From the NCBI GenBank assembly GCA_014762505.1, contig JABURS010000041.1, positions 62,001-126,000 on the forward strand: a stretch of 64,000 nt of DNA, in the 5' to 3' direction. The stretch is from Chromatiales bacterium. GTDB taxonomy: Bacteria > Pseudomonadota > Gammaproteobacteria > SpSt-1174. Positions 4,456 to 14,385 of this stretch are shown piece by piece. Each line of letters opens with the position of its first letter. Within the stretch, counting starts at the first letter, position 1. The position numbers were made by a program, and so were the translations under genes. The notes below the pieces were generated by a model. That model saw only the letters and a list, made by a program, of their open reading frames with translations. It did not search any database and was not told the origin of the DNA.

Positions 4456-5247
4456 TCAGCCGGTCCGGGTGCCGAGGATGGCGCCGCGATCGCGCAGGTC
4501 CTCCAGCAGGGCCAGCCCCCCCTGCATCACGGTCTCCGGCTTCGGGTGACCGAGTTCGCCCGCGATCTGTTCCAGCAAGTCCCGACCACTGCGAGCCGTG
4601 TTCCCGGTGTTCTCGCCGAGCAGGGACAGCAGGCGCGCGCTCACCGCATTGAGTTCCACGAAGTGGACGATATCTTCCGCGTCCCGATAGACCAGCAGGT
4701 GGGTGGGGGCGGCGGGCGCCTCGGTCGGGATGTGCGCAGGACCGACGCGCTGTACCGGCCAGGCGTAGGTGAGCGGCCAGGCCAGCGGCGACAGTACGGG
4801 GGCGCCGGCGGCCAGGTCACCCCGGGCATCGATGCCGGCCATGCCCTCCGTCCCGGCCTCGCTCACCGAGAGCGCCAGCTCCACCCATTCGTAATGTGCC
4901 AGTTCCTGCAGGAAGGGGGGATCATCGGCCTGCGGGGCGTGTTCGTGCCGGAGGTAGTCCAGGAACTCGCGCCCGATCGCCAGGAAATAGGGGGTCCTGG
5001 CACGATGCCGGGCGAAGAAGTCGCGGGTGAGGCGGTCCCAGGCGTCGCGACAGCCCTTTGCCGCGTAGACGGCACGCAGCACCGGAAAGCCGCTGTCGAT
5101 GAAGCTGCGGGTGTTGTTGTACAGCAGCTCACGATATACCGCGAGGCGGCGCTCCTCGATACCCTCCGGTGCCGGCTGATTCGCCGGGTCGCGGATATGG
5201 GCAGTGAAGCGGTACTGCAGCGCCCGGAAGTCTGGTCGTTCAGCCAT
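4456..5247 (-). CDS. hvfC: DUF2063 partner protein of the MNIO enzyme (HvfC/BufC/MbnC-like)
   Basis: This 263-aa protein belongs to DUF2063, whose members bind the leader of a RiPP precursor and hand it to the MNIO oxidase. The N-terminal domain shows [27 protein letters not shown] and the central [15 protein letters not shown], both family landmarks. The C-terminal half ([26 protein letters not shown]) resembles a winged-helix-like recognition domain. The start ATG at 5247 overlaps the MNIO stop by 8 bases, so the partners are coupled. A longer in-frame start lies inside the MNIO gene and is rejected. The copper-buffer role is inferred from hvf and bufferin operons. Confidence 0.88.
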
Positions 5248-6088
5248 GACTGACCCTGGGCGTCTGTGTGGCCTGACGGGTCTGGGCCTCGCGGATCCGT
5301 TCCACCTCGTGCAGCAGCTCGCCAAGTGGGGGCAGGTTGAAGTCGCGCTCCAGCAGCACGGGGAAGACCCCGTGCGTGGCATAGGCGTGATCCAGCAGCC
5401 GCCAGACCGGATCGATCACCACGGCGCCGTGGGTGTCAATGAGCAGGTCCTCGGCCTCGGTGTAGTGGCCGGCGATGTGGCCGTAGGCGATACGTTCGCC
5501 CGGCAGGGCACGGATGAAGGCCTCCGGGTCATAGCCGTGGTTCACCGAGTTGACGTAGACGTTGTTCACGTCGAGCAGCAGGTCGCAATCGGCCTCTTCC
5601 AGCACCGCCCGGGTGAACTCCAGTTCGCTCATCTCCTGTCCGGGGGCGGCATAGGTCGAGACGTTCTCGATGGCGATCCGTCGCTCCAGGATCTCCTGGG
5701 TACGGCGGATACGCGCCGCAACGTGATGTACCGCCGCCTCGGTAAAGGGGATGGGCAGCAGGTCGTAGAGGTGTCCGTCGTCCGAGCAGTAGCTCAGGTG
5801 CTCGCTGTAACAGCGCACCTGGTGACGTTCCAGGAATACACTGATCTCGCGCAGCAGCGCTTCGTCGAGCGGTGCCGGGCCACCCAGTGACAGTGACAGC
5901 CCGTGACAGACAAACGGGTAGCGCTCGGTCAGGGCGCGGAATCGCCGTCCCAGTCGCCCGCCCACACCGATCCAGTTCTCGGGTGCGACCTCGAGAAAGT
6001 CCACGGCGACCGGCCCTGCCTCGAACGCATCGAGCAGCGGGCGACGCAGGCCGAGGCCGGCACCCTGGATGGGGTGTTTGTCAGGCAT
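5240..6088 (-). CDS. hvfB: MNIO (DUF692) multinuclear iron oxidase modifying a Cys-rich peptide
   Basis: This 282-aa TIM-barrel enzyme belongs to the family of MbnB, HvfB and ChrH. These use two or three iron ions and oxygen to convert peptide Cys, in HvfA-type substrates to thiooxazole copper ligands. Candidate metal ligands are all present: H62 (CHGLSL), E96 and H97 (YSEHLSYC), E141 and N142 (IENVSTY), D173 and N175 (DVNNVYVN), H184, H204 and H208 (GHIAGH), D218 and H220, and E247. GGAG precedes the ATG. It lies 218 bp downstream of the precursor gene and overlaps hvfC. The exact chemistry is inferred from the precursor type. Confidence 0.93.
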
Positions 6089-6185
6089 GGTCTGTCTCCG
6101 TGAAGTATCTCATGGCAGTCGTATTGACCCCTTAATCGAGCGGAATATCCCCGGCTTCGTCGTCGCGGGACGGTGGTCTGAAGAC

Positions 6186-6213
6186 ATGATAGCCCGACAC
6201 GGGGCACGGGCAA
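6186..6213 (-). promoter_or_regulatory. Candidate internal sigma-70 promoter for hvfB-hvfC
   Basis: On the minus strand TTGCCC (6208-6213) and TATCAT (6186-6191) are spaced by 16 bp, about 100 bp before the MNIO start. It could supply the enzymes independently of the precursor transcript. Confidence 0.4.
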
Positions 6214-6273
6214 GCCCCCGTGGCGCCGGGGTGAACAATGCGGATTTGCTGGAGGTAATAATGCCTGGCACAG

Positions 6274-6295
6274 GCGGGGAGGCGTGCCTCCCCGC
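6274..6295 (-). promoter_or_regulatory. Stem-loop between precursor and MNIO genes
   Basis: A perfect 9-bp GC stem (GCGGGGAGG and complement) with loop CACG on the minus strand begins 12 bases after the hvfA stop. There is no U-tract. It may protect or partly terminate the precursor mRNA, so that peptide is made in excess over enzyme. Confidence 0.5.
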
Positions 6296-6306
6296 ATGCT
6301 GTACGG

Positions 6307-6603
6307 CTAGCGGCTGCCGCCGCACTTGCCTTCGCCACATTTTCCTTCGGCGGAATCCTTCTTGCTGCCGCCGCATTTTCCTTCCCCGCACTTGCCTTCA
6401 GTCGCATCTTTCTTCGCACCGCTGGCGCCACCACACTTGCCTTCGCCGCATTTTCCTTCGGCGGCGGCCACCATGTAGCCGCTCTGCAGCGAGGTGATGG
6501 CGAAGGGGTTGGTATCGGTAGCGGCATAGGCCGGCGCGGAAAGGGTGGCGACAACCAGGGCGCCCGTGGCGGCACTGATAAAGGTCGAGGTCTGCTTGCT
6601 CAT
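6307..6603 (-). CDS. hvfA: HvfA/bufferin-type RiPP precursor with six EGKCG motifs
   Basis: This 98-aa secreted precursor is the likely MNIO substrate. Residues 1-27 form a signal peptide ending APAYA. A short spacer follows. The core (49-95) holds three copies of EGKCGEGKCG, giving six Cys at 52, 57, 72, 77, 89 and 94, separated by Lys/Ala/Ser linkers. Modified EGKCG Cys bind copper in the Haemophilus HvfA system. ATG 6603 is chosen over the upstream in-frame start because AAGGAG precedes it. An ECF-type promoter lies about 85 bp upstream. Linkers differ in length, which suggests repeat expansion. Metal identity is inferred from the family. Confidence 0.92.
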   Translation of the reverse strand: MSKQTSTFISAATGALVVATLSAPAYAATDTNPFAITSLQSGYMVAAAEGKCGEGKCGGASGAKKDATEGKCGEGKCGGSKKDSAEGKCGEGKCGGSR

Positions 6604-6688
6604 GATGGTTCTCCTTGGATGTGATCCCATGCAACTGGTGCAACTGGGGTGGTTGTTCTGAAGGCCCGAAATGACGGCCTCGCAGGTA

Positions 6689-6716
6689 TAGACGACCCAG
6701 GCGGGAAATCCTTACA
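6689..6716 (-). promoter_or_regulatory. Candidate ECF-sigma promoter of hvfA
   Basis: The minus strand carries TGTAAGG (6710-6716), 15 bp, then CGTCTA (6689-6694). The same arrangement with identical spacing occurs upstream of doxX at 8339-8366. The shared motif is probably recognised by the ECF sigma factor of this locus. Confidence 0.75.
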
Positions 6717-6770
6717 CGGTATTTTCTGCTGCCTGGATCAGGGGGCGATATCGATGGTCCGTGCCGGGCG

Positions 6771-6965
6771 TCATGTCTTCTCCCGGGAGTTGTCCAGTTC
6801 CCGCAGTGACCGGCAGGCCTGACTCAGAAACAGGATGTTCCTGGCGTAGTTACGACATCCGGTACAGATGCCGAGGTGCAGTGTGAGCTCGATGCGTTCC
6901 GGCAGGCTCAGCGGGGTGTCCTGCCGTTTTGACAGAAGTTTCGTTATCTCTTCGCAATTTCTCAT
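6771..6965 (-). CDS. Small soluble zinc-type anti-sigma factor (ZAS-like)
   Basis: This 64-aa protein has the zinc anti-sigma motif H-x3-C-x2-C in HLGICTGC, preceded by a helix (EEITKLLSKRQDTPLSLPERIELTLHL). No membrane segment follows, so it is predicted to be cytosolic. It would hold the ECF sigma factor inactive and release it on metal or thiol stress. The ATG at 6965 fits the GGAAGGG site 8 bases upstream and lies 5 bases past the sigma stop; two earlier in-frame starts are too close to that site. The gene order sigma then anti-sigma is the usual one. Similar in size and layout to MseR of Neisseria. Confidence 0.85.
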   Translation of the reverse strand: MRNCEEITKLLSKRQDTPLSLPERIELTLHLGICTGCRNYARNILFLSQACRSLRELDNSREKT

Positions 6966-6970
6966 GATCA

Positions 6971-7549
6971 TCACCCTTCCTGCTGCCAGCTTTTTTCCAG
7001 GCAGAGTCGTAGTCGTGAGCGTGCCCGATGAAGAATCACCCAGCAGTTGTTCTCACTGATGCCAAGATCGTCGGCAATCTCACGTGTTTCCAGGCCGAGC
7101 AGCTCACGCATCGAAAAAACTCTGGCGGTGTTCTCCGGCAGTGCAGTGAGGCAGAGCTCGAAGATTTCCCAGAATTGCTCGTCGATCAGTGCCTGCTCCG
7201 GGCTTTCCCAGTCCCTGGGACGACACTCCCTGCGCCAATGCCCCCTCTGATCGAAGAGACCGTTCACCATCACATCACCTTCGTCTCCCGGCGCCAGGTC
7301 CAGACTGGCATGCCTGGTGCGCTGGCGTATCTGGTCGATGATCTTGTTTTTCAGGATGGATGCCACCCATGTCCGGGTGCTTGCCTCGCCGCGGAAATTG
7401 TTGCGTGCGGCAAAGGCAGCAGACAGTGTGTCCTGCACCACGTCCTCGGCAAGCACAGGGTCTCGAAGCTGCAGGCGGGCAAAGCGCAGGAGGTCTTCCC
7501 GTAAACCCTTCAGGGCATCCTGGTCAGCCCATGTTGTATCGACATTCAT
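6971..7549 (-). CDS. ECF-family RNA polymerase sigma factor
   Basis: This 192-aa factor has sigma region 2 (AEDVVQDTLSAAFAARNNFRGEASTRTWVASILKNKIID, about residues 34-75) and region 4 (LTALPENTARVFSMRELLGLETREIADDLGISENNCWVILHRARSRLR, about 137-183). The linker is longer than usual. It lies 45 bp after doxX and is followed at once by its anti-sigma, forming doxX-sigma-anti-sigma. It probably directs transcription from the two TGTAAGG-N15-CG(T/A)CTA elements, thus controlling itself and the precursor peptide. The inducing signal, likely copper or oxidative stress, is inferred from related loci. Confidence 0.93.
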   Translation of the reverse strand: MNVDTTWADQDALKGLREDLLRFARLQLRDPVLAEDVVQDTLSAAFAARNNFRGEASTRTWVASILKNKIIDQIRQRTRHASLDLAPGDEGDVMVNGLFDQRGHWRRECRPRDWESPEQALIDEQFWEIFELCLTALPENTARVFSMRELLGLETREIADDLGISENNCWVILHRARSRLRLCLEKSWQQEG

Positions 7550-7594
7550 CAGTCGTTGATCGCTTCGGTCATGTAACAGTGTGTGGCGTCATTC

Positions 7595-8215
7595 TCATCG
7601 GGGGCTGCCATGCCTCTGTCTGGCTGAGGCCAGCCGGTTTATCCAGTGGTCCAGGCTGGCGTATCGGCCGGAACCGACGAAGAACAGAACGAGTAGCATG
7701 ATGAAATAGGTGGCGGCAAACTCCATCCCGTTGTTGAGGATAACCAGGCTGCCGTTCTCGGTGAGCCAGGCATAGTCTCCGTGCTCACGCAGAATCGACT
7801 TTGCCCGGTCGAGGCGTTCGATTGCGCCGATGGTGCGTTCGCTCGCGAACAGGCTGCCCGACCCTTCGGCAATCGCCAGCCAGCCGTTCTGCCAGTGTAC
7901 GGTAATCGCCGCGACGATCATCGTTGCCATGAGTGGGATCGAGATCCACCGGGTGGCCAGGCCGATGAGCAGTAGCACCGCGCCAATGGTTTCCGTCAAT
8001 GCGGCCAGCCATGCCAGGAGTGCCGGCAACGGCAGACCCAGGCCCCATTCCGCGTTGCCGAACCATTCGATGGTCGAGTCCATATTCGCGAGCTTGCTGG
8101 TCCCTGCCATCCAGAACACGGGCGCCAGGTAGAGGCGTAACAGCAGTGGTGCAAGAAAGTCGGCCCGCCGTGTCGCGTCGAGCAGGGTGTGCAGTCGTGT
8201 CATGAATCGCAGCAT
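7595..8215 (-). CDS. hvfX: DoxX-family membrane protein of the MNIO peptide locus (HvfX-like)
   Basis: This 206-aa inner-membrane protein has four hydrophobic helices. The DoxX signature LLRLYLAPVFWMAGTSKLANM sits at about residues 24-45, followed by LAALTETIGAVLLLIGLATRW. Between helices three and four there is a soluble stretch of about 45 residues (ASERTIGAIERLDRAKSILREHGDYAWLTENG), which distinguishes it from short DoxX proteins. Homologues accompany hvfABC and bufferin operons; their role is unproven. GGAG lies 7 bases before the ATG at 8215. It is first in the ECF-driven operon. Confidence 0.87.
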   Translation of the reverse strand: MLRFMTRLHTLLDATRRADFLAPLLLRLYLAPVFWMAGTSKLANMDSTIEWFGNAEWGLGLPLPALLAWLAALTETIGAVLLLIGLATRWISIPLMATMIVAAITVHWQNGWLAIAEGSGSLFASERTIGAIERLDRAKSILREHGDYAWLTENGSLVILNNGMEFAATYFIMLLVLFFVGSGRYASLDHWINRLASARQRHGSPR

Positions 8216-8338
8216 CTGTGTTCTCCGTCAAGGCGTCCCCCCTGCCTGTTCCCGGTTGCACAGGCCGGTTCGCACCAGCCTGGATTGCCGAGCGAGCATG
8301 CTGGGTTCCCTGGGAATGATTTCTGGGTATCAACGATG

Positions 8339-8366
8339 TAGTCGTGATACTGCGCCAAACCTTACA
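8339..8366 (-). promoter_or_regulatory. Candidate ECF-sigma promoter of doxX-sigma-anti-sigma
   Basis: The minus strand carries TGTAAGG (8360-8366), 15 bp, then CGACTA (8339-8344), the same spacing as the hvfA element. It implies autoregulation of the sigma operon, with a leader of about 115 nt. Confidence 0.72.
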
Positions 8367-8569
8367 GCCGTCCTGCATCACGGTCCGATGATTCAGGCAT
8401 GGGCCTGCATGGGCTCGTCCAGAGGCGTGGCTGCGAGGTGATTGGTGAGGCCGCTGAGGGGCTGCCCGGTGGCAGCGGACAGGGGCTCCAGCAGTGGGTC
8501 GTTTGGGACTGTCGACATCGGCGAGTGGAGGGCTGAGCGCCGTCACCGACGACCGGGTGCGTACGGCGC
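8367..8569. other. Intergenic stretch between the ECF promoter and the PilU-like gene
   Basis: Together with the doxX leader this makes a 354-bp gene-free stretch (8216-8569). Apart from the ECF promoter I see no credible gene, RNA or clear U-tailed terminator for the PilT operon that ends at 8570. Confidence 0.5.
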
Positions 8570-9634
8570 TTACCCGGCGGCTCCGCGATACTTCTCGAAC
8601 TCGGCCTTGCGAAAGGCCTTGTCGTAGGCCTCCTCCCCCTTGACCTGGCCGCTGTCGACCAGGCGGCGCAGGGCATTGTCCATGCTCTGCATGCCCTGCA
8701 ACGAGCCGCCGGTGAGGATGTTTTCGAGCTGCTCTGTCTTGCCTTCACGCAGGATGTTGGAAACCGCGGAATTGTTGATCAGGATCTCGATGGCGGCCAG
8801 GCGGCCGCTGCGGTCCGCCTTGGTGACGAGCTGCTGGGAGACCACGGCGCGCAGTGAGGTGGCCAGCATGGAGCGCACTTGATTCTGCTTGTTCAGCGGG
8901 AAGGTGTTGACCAGGCGGTCCACGGTGGAGATGGCGCCGTTGGTGTGCAGGGTGCCGAGCACCATGATGCCGGTCTCGGCAGCGGTGACCGCGAGGCTGG
9001 TGGTCTCGAGATCACGCAGCTCGCCGATGAGGATGACGTCCGGGTCCTCGCGCAGGGCCGAGCGCAGGGCGCTGGCGAAGGTGCGGGTATGCTGGCCGAC
9101 CTCGCGCTGGCTGATGAGGCTGCGCTTGCGGCTGTGTACGAATTCGATCGGGTCCTCGATGGTGATGATGTGTGCCTTGCGCCGGCTGTTGATGTAATCG
9201 ACCATCGCCGCCAGCGTGGTGGATTTGCCCGATCCGGTCTTGCCGGTCACGAGCAGCAGGCCGTTGGTCTGCATGCACAGGCTGGCGATGACCTCGGGCA
9301 GGCCGAGTTCTTCCAGCGAGAAGGCCGAGGCGGGGATGCCGCGGAATACGGCGCCCATGCCGGCGATGTGGCGGAAGACGTTGACGCGAAAGCGGGCCAG
9401 TCCCTCCATTGACAGGGCGAAGTCGGCATGGTCGTGTGATTCGAACTGGGCGCGGATCTCGGGCGGCATGACCTTGTAGATCTCGTTCTGCACGAACTCG
9501 GGCTCCAGTTCCGTATCACCCTCGGTTTCGAGTTCGCCCAGCCGGCGTACGCGTGCCGGTTCGCCGGCAATGAAGTGCAGGTCCGACCCCTTGGTCCGGA
9601 TCATCATCTCCAGCAGTTCTTCGATGCTTGCCAC
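8570..9634 (-). CDS. PilT-family retraction ATPase, second paralogue (PilU-like)
   Basis: This 354-aa hexameric ATPase of type IV pili probably powers or assists pilus retraction at the inner membrane. Visible are the N-terminal GSDLHFIAGEPARVRRLGELE, Walker A GKTGSGKST, the Asp box IITIEDPIEFVH, Walker B DVILIGELRD and the His box GTLHTNGAISTVDR. The PilT late motif is altered (NNSAVSNILREGKT). It lies 24 bp after the other PilT-like gene and ends the operon led by the small protein and the HEAT kinase. It is diverged from canonical PilT and could serve a specialised pilus or signalling role. Confidence 0.85.
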   Translation of the reverse strand: MASIEELLEMMIRTKGSDLHFIAGEPARVRRLGELETEGDTELEPEFVQNEIYKVMPPEIRAQFESHDHADFALSMEGLARFRVNVFRHIAGMGAVFRGIPASAFSLEELGLPEVIASLCMQTNGLLLVTGKTGSGKSTTLAAMVDYINSRRKAHIITIEDPIEFVHSRKRSLISQREVGQHTRTFASALRSALREDPDVILIGELRDLETTSLAVTAAETGIMVLGTLHTNGAISTVDRLVNTFPLNKQNQVRSMLATSLRAVVSQQLVTKADRSGRLAAIEILINNSAVSNILREGKTEQLENILTGGSLQGMQSMDNALRRLVDSGQVKGEEAYDKAFRKAEFEKYRGAAG

Positions 9635-9658
9635 GCGTGGATCTCCGGTTGTCTGGGC

Positions 9659-10753
9659 TCAGCCGCCGGCCAGGTCGACCTTGGGCAGCAGGGACGGATC
9701 ACTGACGAAACGCTGGAACTGCTTCTTGTCGTGTGCGTGCAGGTAGGCGTCGTCGGGGTCGATCTCGCCCTTCTGCAGCGCCTCCATCAGCGCCTGGTCG
9801 AGCAGCTGCATGCCCTGGGCCTTGCCCGTCTGGATCTGGGTCGGGATCTGGAACAGCTTGTCGGTGGCGATGAGCCGGGCGATGGCGGTGTTCATGGTCA
9901 GGATCTCGAGCATGGCCTTGCGGCCGCGGCCATCGGCGGTCTTGACCAGCACCTGGGTGATGACCGCATGCAGGTTCTGCGCAAGAAAGATCTTGGCCTG
10001 TTCGCGCTGCTCGGCGGGCAGTGCGTCGATGATGCGGTCCAGGGTCTTGGTGGCCGAGGTGGTATGCAGGGTGCCGAGCACCAGGTGCCCGGTCTCGGCG
10101 GCCATCATCGCCATGCTGATGGTCTCCATGTCGCGCAGCTCGCCCACCAGGATGATGTCCGGGTCTTCACGCAGAGCGGCGCGCAGCCCGTTGGCGAAGT
10201 TGTCGACGTGGGTGCCGACCTCGCGCTGGATCACCTGGGAGTTCTTGCTGCGATGCACGAACTCCACCGGGTCTTCGAGGGTGATGATGTTGGCGCGGCG
10301 GGTCGTGTTGATGTGGTCGATCATCGCCGCCAGCGTGGTGGACTTGCCGGTGCCGGTGGCGCCGGTGACCAGGATCATGCCCTGGTGATGATGGGTGACC
10401 TTCTCCACCACCGCTGGCAGCTTGAGTTCCTGCAGGGTGGGCACGTTCGAGGGGATGTGCCGGAAGGTGGCACCCACGCCGCCCAGTTTGCGAAAGATGT
10501 TGGCGCGGAACCGGCCGACATCGCGCGCCATGTAGGAGAAGTCCAGGTCTTCGCCCTCGCGAAGCCGCTTGCGCTGCGTCTCGGTGAGGATCTCGTTGAC
10601 GTAGCCCTCGAGTTCGGCCTCGCCGAGGTCGCGGAACTTGATCGGCATGATGTCGCCGTGCATGCGCAGCATCGGCGGCACGCCCACGGCGAGGTGGATG
10701 TCGGAGCAGCCCTGTTCGCGGCCGAGTTTCAGGAAGGCATCGATACGTGCCAT
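9659..10753 (-). CDS. PilT-family retraction ATPase, first paralogue
   Basis: This 364-aa ATPase has the PilT N-domain (GCSDIHLAVGVPPMLRMHGDI), Walker A GATGTGKST, IITLEDPVEFVHRSKNSQVIQREVG, Walker B DIILVGELRD and the His box GTLHTTSATKTLDR. The usual AIRNLIR motif of PilT is replaced by TAIARLIATDKL. Only 6 bp separates it from the kinase stop, so expression and probably function are linked. Both PilT-like genes here differ enough from textbook PilT and PilU that a second, canonical pair elsewhere in the genome is likely. Which of the two is the active motor cannot be told from sequence. Confidence 0.85.
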   Translation of the reverse strand: MARIDAFLKLGREQGCSDIHLAVGVPPMLRMHGDIMPIKFRDLGEAELEGYVNEILTETQRKRLREGEDLDFSYMARDVGRFRANIFRKLGGVGATFRHIPSNVPTLQELKLPAVVEKVTHHHQGMILVTGATGTGKSTTLAAMIDHINTTRRANIITLEDPVEFVHRSKNSQVIQREVGTHVDNFANGLRAALREDPDIILVGELRDMETISMAMMAAETGHLVLGTLHTTSATKTLDRIIDALPAEQREQAKIFLAQNLHAVITQVLVKTADGRGRKAMLEILTMNTAIARLIATDKLFQIPTQIQTGKAQGMQLLDQALMEALQKGEIDPDDAYLHAHDKKQFQRFVSDPSLLPKVDLAGG

Positions 10754-10759
10754 GGGGTG

Positions 10760-13183
10760 CTATTCCTCGGGAATCATCGCCAGTCGTTCATGGAGCTCGT
10801 CCATGGACTGATAGCGCTTGTCCGGGTCCCTGGCCATGGCCTTCATGATGATGGCGCTCAGCGTCCTGGAGATCTTCGGGTTGACCTTGTAGAGCGGCTC
10901 GGCCTCACCCTGTACGTGCTGGTACATGAGTGACATGGCATCTTCCCCGGTGTAGGGCGGCTTGCCGGCGAACATCTGGTACATGATGATGCCGAGGCTG
11001 TAGATGTCGGTGCGATGGTCCACCGGCTTGCCCAGCACCTGCTCCGGGGCGAGGTAGGTGGGGGTGCCCACCACCATGCCGGTGCGGGTGAGGCGCGTCT
11101 CAGCATTGCCGGAGGCGGCCGCGATGCCGAAGTCCACCAGTTTCACCAGGCCGTCCTGGTTGATGAGGATGTTGGCCGGCTTGATGTCGCGGTGCACGAC
11201 CTGCTCGCGATGGGCGGCCGCGAGTGCGGCCGTGATCTGCAGCAGGATGTGGCGGGCATGGTTCCAGGCGAGCACGCCATCCTGCTTGAGCTCGTCACCC
11301 AGGGTGTGCCCCGGGAAGTACTCCATCGAGATGGCGGCCGCATCGCCGAAGCTGAGAAAGTCGTGGATACGGATCACGTTCGGATGCGTGACCTTGCGCG
11401 CGTAGCGGATCTCGTGGATGAAGCGGCGGCGGACGTTCTCGTCGGTGGCGAACTGCGGGTTGATGAATTTCATGATCACCCGCTCGTCGAGCACCTTGTC
11501 CTCGAACAGCAGGACGGTGCCGAAGGCGCCTTTGCCGATCTGCCGGATCATGTGATAGCGGTTGTTCAGCACCGTACCGGGGGCGAGCTTCTCCGGCTGG
11601 GCGAGGTTTACCGCCTCACCGGTGGCGGCCGGCGATTCGGTGCTGGACGGCGGGGGCGTGTTGCCGGGGCTGGTGGGCCGGGCGCCGGGTTCGGCTCGAC
11701 GCAGCATCTGGGTCTCCGGGGCGTGGGTGCTGAACACGCCGCCGCTGCTGCCGCCCGCGCGCTGCTCGATCGCCCGCAGGGCCTCGCCGGCCAGCTCGCG
11801 CAGCGCCTCGCCATACTCCGGCATGGCCGCCTCGATGGCCTTGCAGATGGGATGGGCGTGGGCCTCGGAGGCGAGTCTGGCCAGTGCCTGCAGCGTCTCC
11901 TTGCGTACCGTCTCGTCCGGGTCTTTCAATAGCGGCAGCAGCTCCTTGATGGCGCCGCGGTTGCCGATCTGTCCCAGGGCGCGCACCGCGGCCCGGCGGG
12001 TGTATGCGTCCTTTGCCAGGGCCTTGTAGAGCAGGGGCAGGGACTTGTCGCTGCCCATGGTGGCCAGTGCGTCGATGGCGCGTTCGCGCACCCACCAGTC
12101 GGCGTCCTCCAGGGCCTCCAGCACCTGATCGAAGGCGCGCTCGTCACCACTGGCGTTGATCACCTCGATGGCCGTGCGGCGGATGTACTCGTCGTCGTCC
12201 TTGATGAGGCCGAGCATGGCGTCGACCACGCGCGGGCCGCCGATCTTGATCAGCGCATCCGAGGCGCGCTCGCGCACCCACCAGTCGCTGTCCTTGATGG
12301 CGCCGAGCAGCTGTTTGATGGAGCGGGTGTCGGCGATGGCATTGAGCACCTCCACCGCGCCGCGGCGGATGTACTCGGAGTCGTCCTGCAGCAGGGTCAG
12401 GAGCTCGGTGAGGGTATCCGGGTGTCTCCACTGCACCAGGGCGTCGATGGCCTGGTGCTGGACGTTGAGGTCCGGGTCCCTGAGCAGCTTGACGACGGGC
12501 TTGATGTCCGGCGGCGAGTCCATTTGCGCAACGCCCGCCAGCGCCGACATGCGTACCAGCTTCTGCGGGTCATCGAGCAGCTTCCACAGGGCCTCGCGTG
12601 CCCTGGGCCGATCGAGGAACCGGCCCAGCACGCGCGCCACGTTCGCGCGCACATGCGGCTCCTTGGCGGAGGCGCGGACGACCAGGTCGGGGATCAGGGC
12701 CTCGTTGGCCAGCTCGCGGATCATGTTGAACAGCGGCACCTGGCGGGTACGGTCCAGTTTGACCGCCTGCACCAGCAGGGTCTTGGGGTTCACGCGCTGC
12801 TTGTGGCTCTCGAGGATCTTGATCAGCGCCGCCTCGGGGATATCCGGGTTGCCGAAATGCGGGATCAGGCGGTTGGGGTCGTAGGCACCGGCCTGCTGCA
12901 ACAGCACCGTGATGGCGTTGACGATGCGCGGGTTCTTGTCGGCGAGGGTCTTGATGAAGACAGAGAGCGTGCTATTGTCCAGCAGCGTGATGAGGATCTG
13001 CAGCAGGGCGTCGCGCTGGTCCTTGTTGGCAGTGGACAGTGCCTCGATGATCTGCGGGATGGCTGGCTTGCCCGCCTCTCGCAGCTTGGTCAGGGCCTCG
13101 ACGGTCTTTTCCGCATGCAGGTCTTCGGCGGCGAGCACGCGCTCCACCAGCCGACCCACACGAAAGTCCGAAATAAGCCCCAT
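10760..13183 (-). CDS. HEAT-repeat Ser/Thr protein kinase
   Basis: This 807-aa cytosolic protein has about 470 residues of HEAT repeats, a Pro/Ser-rich linker (about 475-535), and a C-terminal Hanks-type kinase (about 540-800). The kinase looks active: IGKGAFGTV (549-557), the ATP Lys K572, HRD with D666 and N671, DFG at 684-686, and APE at 712-714. The HEAT part contains near-repeated modules reading DDxEYIRRxAxEV then DxDWWVRERAxDAL. There is no membrane segment or PASTA domain. The following PilT-like gene is 6 bp away, so this kinase may regulate pilus retraction by phosphorylation. That link is inference from the operon. Confidence 0.88.
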   Translation of the reverse strand: MGLISDFRVGRLVERVLAAEDLHAEKTVEALTKLREAGKPAIPQIIEALSTANKDQRDALLQILITLLDNSTLSVFIKTLADKNPRIVNAITVLLQQAGAYDPNRLIPHFGNPDIPEAALIKILESHKQRVNPKTLLVQAVKLDRTRQVPLFNMIRELANEALIPDLVVRASAKEPHVRANVARVLGRFLDRPRAREALWKLLDDPQKLVRMSALAGVAQMDSPPDIKPVVKLLRDPDLNVQHQAIDALVQWRHPDTLTELLTLLQDDSEYIRRGAVEVLNAIADTRSIKQLLGAIKDSDWWVRERASDALIKIGGPRVVDAMLGLIKDDDEYIRRTAIEVINASGDERAFDQVLEALEDADWWVRERAIDALATMGSDKSLPLLYKALAKDAYTRRAAVRALGQIGNRGAIKELLPLLKDPDETVRKETLQALARLASEAHAHPICKAIEAAMPEYGEALRELAGEALRAIEQRAGGSSGGVFSTHAPETQMLRRAEPGARPTSPGNTPPPSSTESPAATGEAVNLAQPEKLAPGTVLNNRYHMIRQIGKGAFGTVLLFEDKVLDERVIMKFINPQFATDENVRRRFIHEIRYARKVTHPNVIRIHDFLSFGDAAAISMEYFPGHTLGDELKQDGVLAWNHARHILLQITAALAAAHREQVVHRDIKPANILINQDGLVKLVDFGIAAASGNAETRLTRTGMVVGTPTYLAPEQVLGKPVDHRTDIYSLGIIMYQMFAGKPPYTGEDAMSLMYQHVQGEAEPLYKVNPKISRTLSAIIMKAMARDPDKRYQSMDELHERLAMIPEE

Positions 13184-13210
13184 ATCCTCCTCGTCCCCGC
13201 GGGTGGCGCT

Positions 13211-13678
13211 TCAGTCGAGCTGGGCGATGTGGACGATGTAGGCCTTGTTCACCAGGTAGGTGCGGCCGTCGTCCACGTGCAGCTTGATGAAACGCTCGCC
13301 CGTCTGGTTGATGTAGTCATAGAGCCGGCGATGCTGCGGATCGAGAAATTCGCGGATCTCGCCCTCGAACATGCTCCCGTCCATCATGTGCAGGCGGCAG
13401 CGCAGGGTGGTGAGGTCCTGCGAATCGGCAGGTTCCTCGGCCTGGAATTCCACCCGTACGATGGAGCGCTTGTTGTAGAAGCGCGCCTCGTCGAGGTCTT
13501 CGCGCTGCAGGACGAGGAAAGGTGCCTCGTTGTTCAGCACCTCTACCGGCTGTTCTTCACCCGAGTGGTATTCGCTCTGCTCGTAGAGGTACATCGAGCC
13601 GATCACACGGCCTTCCGGGTGTACCCAGAGCGTAACGAGTTTCTGCCGTTTGGGAATCTTCAGCGCTTCGCTATCCAC
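13211..13678 (-). CDS. Small conserved protein leading the kinase-PilT operon
   Basis: This 155-aa protein was not recognised with certainty. It is soluble, rich in beta structure (KLVTLWVHPEGRVIGSMYLYEQSEYHSG, FLVLQREDLDEARFYNKRSIVRVEF, RLHMMDGSMFEGEIREFL), and ends in KLHVDDGRTYLVNKAYIVHIAQLD, reminiscent of a small barrel such as an Sm-like or PilZ-like fold. A GTG start at 13678 is chosen because AAAGGG lies 7 bases upstream and conservation-like sequence begins there; an in-frame start 138 bases further up is less likely. It is 27 bp before the kinase gene and may be its partner or substrate. Confidence 0.7.
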   Translation of the reverse strand: MDSEALKIPKRQKLVTLWVHPEGRVIGSMYLYEQSEYHSGEEQPVEVLNNEAPFLVLQREDLDEARFYNKRSIVRVEFQAEEPADSQDLTTLRCRLHMMDGSMFEGEIREFLDPQHRRLYDYINQTGERFIKLHVDDGRTYLVNKAYIVHIAQLD

Positions 13679-13959
13679 GATCCAGCCCTTTGCTGTTCTT
13701 GTTAGTGACGGCCCCCACCACACTGTCCCGTGTGTCCCGGGCCCGTGCCACCGCGAACCGGCCGCGGCGGATGATCGTTCTCCAACGACTCGCGTGTTGA
13801 TCTGTGAGGCGCGCACGACAGGGCATGCCCCGGATCCCTGTCATTGCCAGACTGAAGGCACCCCGCCAGAAGGCGGTATCCCTCAAGGGTTATGAAAGCA
13901 GATCGACCGGGCAGGTACAAGCCCGCAGTGTCAAATACTGACTATCCTGACGGTCCCGA
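13679..13959. other. Intergenic region upstream of the kinase-PilT operon
   Basis: This 281-bp stretch must hold the operon promoter. The only recognisable element is a minus-strand TTGACA (13929-13934) without a convincing -10 at 16-18 bp. I see no gene. Confidence 0.4.
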
Positions 13960-14385
13960 TCAGCCGACGAGCTGCCGGATGCACTCGAGGTATTGCTGTT
14001 CGTCCGGTTCGCGCTGGCTGCGTTGCGCCTCCCACAGAGCGCGTCCGAGGCATTCCATGATGCGATGCTCCGCCTCGTGTTCGCCCAGCCGACCGGTCAG
14101 CGTCTGCCAGGCGGCGCGGATGCCGGCAGGCCGGTCGGTGCCAACCTGTTCGCGGATGGCCAGGTGCATGCCCATGTGCAGGAAGGGATTGGACTGCCCC
14201 ATCTCCGGGGTGTACTCGGCGCCGAGGGCGGCCTCGGGGTCGTCCAGCAGGGGGTGGTACTCCGGGTGGGCCTCGATCACGTCGGCGATCTGCCGGGCCA
14301 GCGGGTCCAGCGTCTCGCCGCGTCGGCGGCGTGCCCAGGCGTCGCAGTAGAGTCGTCGCAGCTGGTTGCGGTCGTTGCCGAACAT
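13960..14385 (-). CDS. DUF1841 family protein
   Basis: This 141-aa soluble protein belongs to DUF1841, a family common in beta- and gammaproteobacteria with no known function. Landmarks are the N-terminal FGNDRNQLRRLYCDAWARRR, IADVIEAHPEYHPLLDDP, NPFLHMGMHLAIREQ and AEHRIMECLGRALWEAQR. Two conserved-looking His (HMGMH) could bind metal. It starts 3 bp after the nth stop and is probably translated from the same message. The coupling with nth is frequent in this group. Confidence 0.85.
   Translation of the reverse strand: MFGNDRNQLRRLYCDAWARRRRGETLDPLARQIADVIEAHPEYHPLLDDPEAALGAEYTPEMGQSNPFLHMGMHLAIREQVGTDRPAGIRAAWQTLTGRLGEHEAEHRIMECLGRALWEAQRSQREPDEQQYLECIRQLVG

Follow-up and report, generated by a model that had tools for sequence, protein, structure and literature searches.

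A HEAT-repeat Ser/Thr kinase gene kept in order with two PilT-type motor genes points to a possible phosphorylation switch on pilus motors

What does a Ser/Thr protein kinase (STPK) do when its gene stands directly before those of two PilT-type motor ATPases? This arrangement is found in a Chromatiales bacterium, within the 64,000-nt stretch of contig JABURS010000041.1 that was analysed here (the window). Four genes on the minus strand make up the locus, encoding a 155-aa small protein (13211–13678, GTG start), an 807-aa HEAT-repeat Ser/Thr protein kinase (10760–13183), and two PilT/PilU-family motor ATPases, pilTa (9659–10753, 364 aa) and pilTb (8570–9634, 354 aa, GTG start). They are separated by 27, 6 and 24 bp, to the base as given in a preliminary description made from the sequence alone, and this short spacing suggests that the four genes are co-transcribed. 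Positions 8200–14000 showed no sigma-70-like promoter and no terminator-like site. The locus follows metG-rnf-nth-DUF1841, and mrp-dcd lies divergently on the far side of metG.

HEAT repeats and a Pkinase domain (Pfam, 1.2e-56) are recognised in the 807-aa protein by Pfam/NCBIfam, and its AlphaFold model (mean pLDDT 88) consists of a HEAT solenoid (residues 1–477, 11753–13183, minus strand), a disordered linker (residues about 478–535, 11579–11752, minus strand) and a PknB-like kinase domain (residues 541–803, 10775–11563, minus strand), whose nearest solved folds are PknB, PknA and Stk1. The preliminary description held that all catalytic motifs are kept, and the comparison of 52 orthologues bears this out: G550/G552, K572, E591, H664-R665-D666 (D666, codon 11186–11188, is the HRD aspartate), K668, N671, D684, G686 and P713-E714 are invariant, and the Hanks-type hallmarks (glycine loop, catalytic Lys, Glu, HRD, DFG and APE) are all present, invariant or nearly so. 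Both DWW turns of the HEAT repeats (residues 300–302 and 362–364) are likewise invariant. The kinase domain resembles PASTA/PknB-type kinases (30–35% identity to the PknB and PknA structures), but the protein differs from them in its N-terminal HEAT solenoid and has no PASTA match; the PASTA kinase model NF033483 reaches 309.9 bits through the kinase part only, below the cut-off of 450, which leaves the protein outside that family. The linker contains ETQML, a T-x-hydrophobic-hydrophobic sequence, and a T-x-hydrophobic motif occurs in the linkers of 21 of the 52 orthologues as compared to a mean of 1.7 after shuffling; with a pattern picked post hoc and related sequences, the motif is no more than suggestive. 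HEAT-repeat proteins with 25–29% identity to the kinase's HEAT part were also seen at L031–L035 and L030 (mostly Desulfobacterota-type MAGs); these have no kinase domain at the match, and no PilT gene was found in the fetched stretches.

The two motors score 428.1 (pilTa) and 432.3 bits (pilTb) with TIGR01420, the PilT/PilU type IVa model (cut-off 319.1), matching model positions 2–342 of 343, so that both belong to this family at full length and with a margin of about 110 bits. Both retain an intact Walker A, Asp box, Walker B Glu and His box, and the two genes stand in tandem as pilT and pilU do. The AIRNLIR segment of canonical PilT, which had been described as lacking in both proteins, is indeed replaced in pilTa (AIARLIA), but in pilTb it is only partly diverged (AVSNILR, retaining N and R). 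In a maximum-likelihood tree that included PilT, PilU and PilB/GspE, pilTa and pilTb form two separate clades (supports of 100/100 and 99/97); PilU forms a clade of its own (100/100) that excludes both, and the PilT clade has lower support (92/91). With separate clades and no canonical AIRNLIR, neither protein is an orthologue of canonical PilT, and neither is one of PilU. Judged by family membership, pilTa and pilTb are probably type IV pilus motors. One could suppose instead that they serve something other than pilus retraction, such as secretion (as DotB-like ATPases) or anti-phage defence together with a kinase; pilTa does give secondary matches to DotB/TraJ models (174–179 bits), and the kinase domain matches the PD-T4-6 kinase models of PADLOC. 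We consider this very improbable: TIGR01420 scores are far higher, the best solved relatives of both motors are PilT, no relatives turned up in plasmid and viral scans, and the PADLOC matches are generic. A defence-system identity (PD-T4-6 kinase) was rejected, as the match covers only the kinase domain and not the full length.

Whether the gene order is kept in other genomes, the check proposed with the preliminary description, was examined in two ways. A kinase scan using one genome per species found about 20 proteobacterial loci, all of which have kinase, pilTa and pilTb in this order where the sequence is long enough. In a sample of 369 Gammaproteobacteria genomes from 272 genera (the window's own included; an even but not complete sample), a pilTa orthologue is found in 44 genomes of 35 genera, and gene neighbourhoods were fetched for 40 genomes. 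Every scorable locus (about 57 in total, L026 and L133 being one locus) has the order kinase-pilTa-pilTb on the same strand, with protein identities of 35–53% for the kinase and 59–77% for pilTa. A gene order confined to this one genome, which would have refuted the preliminary description, is therefore not what is seen. Median gaps among relatives are 13 bp (kinase/pilTa) and 8 bp (pilTa/pilTb), and start and stop codons overlap in many. Incomplete loci are explained by cut contigs, frameshifts (L027, L028) and one run of N (L117). Two candidate irregularities were rejected: an in-frame TGA in pilTa of three genomes is the regular stop codon at the C-terminal end, which had been read through, and a truncated kinase in genome G285 is due to Ns (from an assembly gap or masking) that interrupt the gene. 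The window's own genus and family include two genomes without a match (one of them only 75% complete), and no further carriers were found in a phylum-wide sample at the strict threshold of E <= 1e-115.

The unit is found in at least four genomic settings, including mrp-dcd/unit/metG-rsxB-nth, thiL-pgpA-(small)-unit, and the placing after nth-DUF1841 seen in the window. Since the order is kept in 35 genera, at 35–77% protein identity and in these different settings, it is conserved far above chance. The distance matrices of the kinase domain, the HEAT part, pilTa and pilTb are correlated (0.85–0.91, with 0 of 500 permutations as high), as expected under joint inheritance. A minor observation from the neighbourhoods is that dcd (dCTP deaminase) is split by an intein with splicing and LAGLIDADG domains at L010 (4985–6775, minus strand), and similarly at L024 (4956–6743) and L011 (5107–6594).

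The small protein is less constant. Its gene is present in 36 of the 369 sampled genomes (28 genera) and lies upstream of the kinase in 29 loci, about half, with a median gap of 45 bp. Two tandem Sm/SH3-like beta-barrels are predicted for it (pLDDT 91.5), the C-terminal half being DUF6812-related. The DUF6812 score (21.1 bits) is below the Pfam gathering cut-off of 27.1, leaving the protein outside the family, though 23 of 28 homologues match DUF6812 weakly and one matches Hfq. A PDB fold search returned no match at E <= 0.001, only partial SH3/Sm-like matches (DUF903, Hfq); the protein is akin to DUF6812/Sm-like small barrels through weak matches, and differs from them in having two barrels in tandem.

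The preliminary description spoke of a pilus-retraction operon. It is not the main one: in the window's genome the canonical pilT-pilU pair is on another contig, and among the 44 carriers a canonical PilT (identity of at least 80%) is encoded elsewhere in 42, with one more at 63%. For this reason pilTa and pilTb are an addition to the main retraction motor and not its replacement. Carriers do have pilus machinery: besides the canonical pilT-pilU of the window's genome, PilM is found above cut-off in 38 of 44 of them as compared to 272 of 369 genomes overall, a modest association. At L036 (3929–7440, plus strand, contig C43) pilT-pilU is followed by a third PilU-like gene, whose 419-aa product has a long acidic tail.

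A conserved order could mean only that a kinase module and extra motors share a transcript and are co-expressed, neither acting on the other. The absence of the 155-aa gene from about half of the loci and the modest PilM association would fit such an arrangement, which we nevertheless hold to be quite unlikely, since the genes co-occur strictly and in fixed order in 35 genera and in several genomic settings; the correlated divergence also speaks against it, though co-inheritance alone gives such a correlation too.

The genes around the unit say more about function. Flanking ORFs of all loci were clustered and the recurrent families identified by Pfam. A gene for an FHA-domain (phosphothreonine-binding) protein lies directly 3' of pilTb on the same strand in 16 loci, and an adenylate cyclase-FHA fusion takes this place in 5 distinct loci; an FHA gene, in one of two unrelated architectures, is found at most 0.8 kb after pilTb in 21 of the 50 distinct loci that have at least 1.2 kb of downstream sequence. 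Upstream of the unit there is a divergent PP2C phosphatase gene in 9 loci and a gene for an FHA-GAF-HD protein in 6. STPK, PP2C and FHA genes are all together in 9 relatives. No locus of the mrp/metG setting has FHA or PP2C neighbours, and no FHA or PP2C gene is near the operon in the window. The window's genome (2.77 Mb) contains only 6 FHA and 2 PP2C matches, and so the adjacency seen in relatives is not expected by chance.

The homologues of these neighbours in the window's genome are on other contigs, from which they may serve the operon. A homologue of the pilTb-linked FHA protein (35–42% identical) is encoded on contig C28 beside a homologue of the PP2C neighbour and behind a CHASE2-kinase gene, and a relative of the cyclase-FHA protein is near the second PP2C gene on contig C18. 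The C28 genes form one cassette of CHASE2-domain Ser/Thr kinase, PP2C phosphatase and FHA protein (L174, 6095–10355, minus strand); because the cassette has its own kinase, a link to the operon is a guess.

With FHA, PP2C and FHA-cyclase genes recurring next to the unit, phospho-regulation becomes much more likely than it was from the adjacency of kinase and PilT genes alone. Phosphorylation control of pilus dynamics, as suggested in the preliminary description, is plausible and has been strengthened by them; the substrate and the effect on pili are the conjectural part. Our preferred reading, with a probability of roughly 0.58, is that the operon encodes a Ser/Thr-phosphorylation module dedicated to a second, paralogous motor ATPase pair of the type IV pilus. 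As a scaffold, the HEAT solenoid would dock the kinase on its targets, of which pilTa and pilTb themselves or the base of the pilus are the most likely. Threonines in the linker of the kinase and in partner proteins would be phosphorylated by the PknB-like domain; FHA-domain proteins would read the phosphate mark, and the PP2C phosphatase would remove it. The outcome would be to determine at what times pilTa and pilTb engage the pilus machine, with canonical PilT/PilU working alongside them. That the kinase is active, that FHA reads the mark and that PP2C removes it follow from the protein families, whereas we infer that kinase and motors act jointly, which sites are phosphorylated and in which direction pili are affected. 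Candidate phosphosites are the Thr of the linker (that of ETQML in the window) and the clade-specific Ser/Thr of the motors, namely S351 in pilTa and S175, T185 and T259 in pilTb; as such sites in the motors are few, phosphorylation may be directed at the kinase linker or the FHA proteins instead. More tentatively, and as a possibility that we would not bet on, the system may be a self-contained phosphothreonine writer, reader and eraser dedicated to the pilus motors, in which the kinase switches the motor pair on and off and the FHA-cyclase and FHA-HD proteins couple motor state to cAMP/c-di-GMP.

The main rival reverses the roles of motors and kinase: engagement of pilTa/pilTb with retracting pili (surface contact, load) would control the HEAT-kinase, whose output would pass through FHA-cyclase/FHA-HD proteins to cAMP or c-di-GMP. 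In some relatives the FHA domain encoded downstream of pilTb is part of a fusion with an adenylate cyclase, and in others the one encoded upstream is fused to GAF-HD, which is in keeping with motors acting as sensors; canonical PilT is present anyway, so that the extra motors could have a signalling role. We regard it as unlikely, however, since pilTa and pilTb retain all ATPase motifs, as a working motor needs, and the most frequent FHA neighbour of pilTb has no enzymatic domain.

The preferred reading, a phosphorylation module acting on the motors, has its closest parallel in the threonine phosphorylation pathway that controls type VI secretion (T6SS), in which PpkA is the kinase, PppA the phosphatase and Fha the reader (PMC5995506, PMC3953482). 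Both have a logic of post-translational control, and in both, genes for an STPK, a PP2C phosphatase and an FHA protein accompany those of a cell-envelope machine (for the unit described here, in several relatives). Unlike in the T6SS pathway, the genes linked to the unit are those of PilT-type motors, its kinase has a HEAT scaffold, and FHA and PP2C are optional neighbours, found on other contigs in the window's genome. No T6SS locus was recognised among the recurrent neighbour families inspected. That STPKs can control motility by type IV pili has a precedent in Synechocystis, where SpkA and other STPKs are needed for pilus-dependent motility (PMC7076178); the precedent is cyanobacterial, and the excerpted sections of that report mention no pilT-linked STPK gene. 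In the open-access literature (subscription journals being mostly outside the scope of the search), we found no account of an STPK-PilT operon, none joining PilT with FHA and PP2C, and none joining a HEAT repeat with STPK and twitching. The HEAT-kinase/two-PilT unit suggests that pilus motors are under a phosphorylation switch not described so far, which would carry the T6SS threonine-phosphorylation logic over to them. Why many bacteria hold several PilT-like motors and how retraction switches quickly are open questions, to which a conserved kinase with two extra motors, found in 35 genera and adjoined in many by phosphothreonine readers and erasers, offers a concrete and testable answer.

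Next to the operon, the window also contains what looks like a copper-binding RiPP cluster of the bufferin type (5240–8215, minus strand), with genes for an MbnB/TglH/ChrH-type enzyme (5240–6088), a sigma factor (6971–7549) and HvfX (7595–8215), and a short ORF with EGKCGEGKCGG repeats (6307–6630), all on the minus strand.
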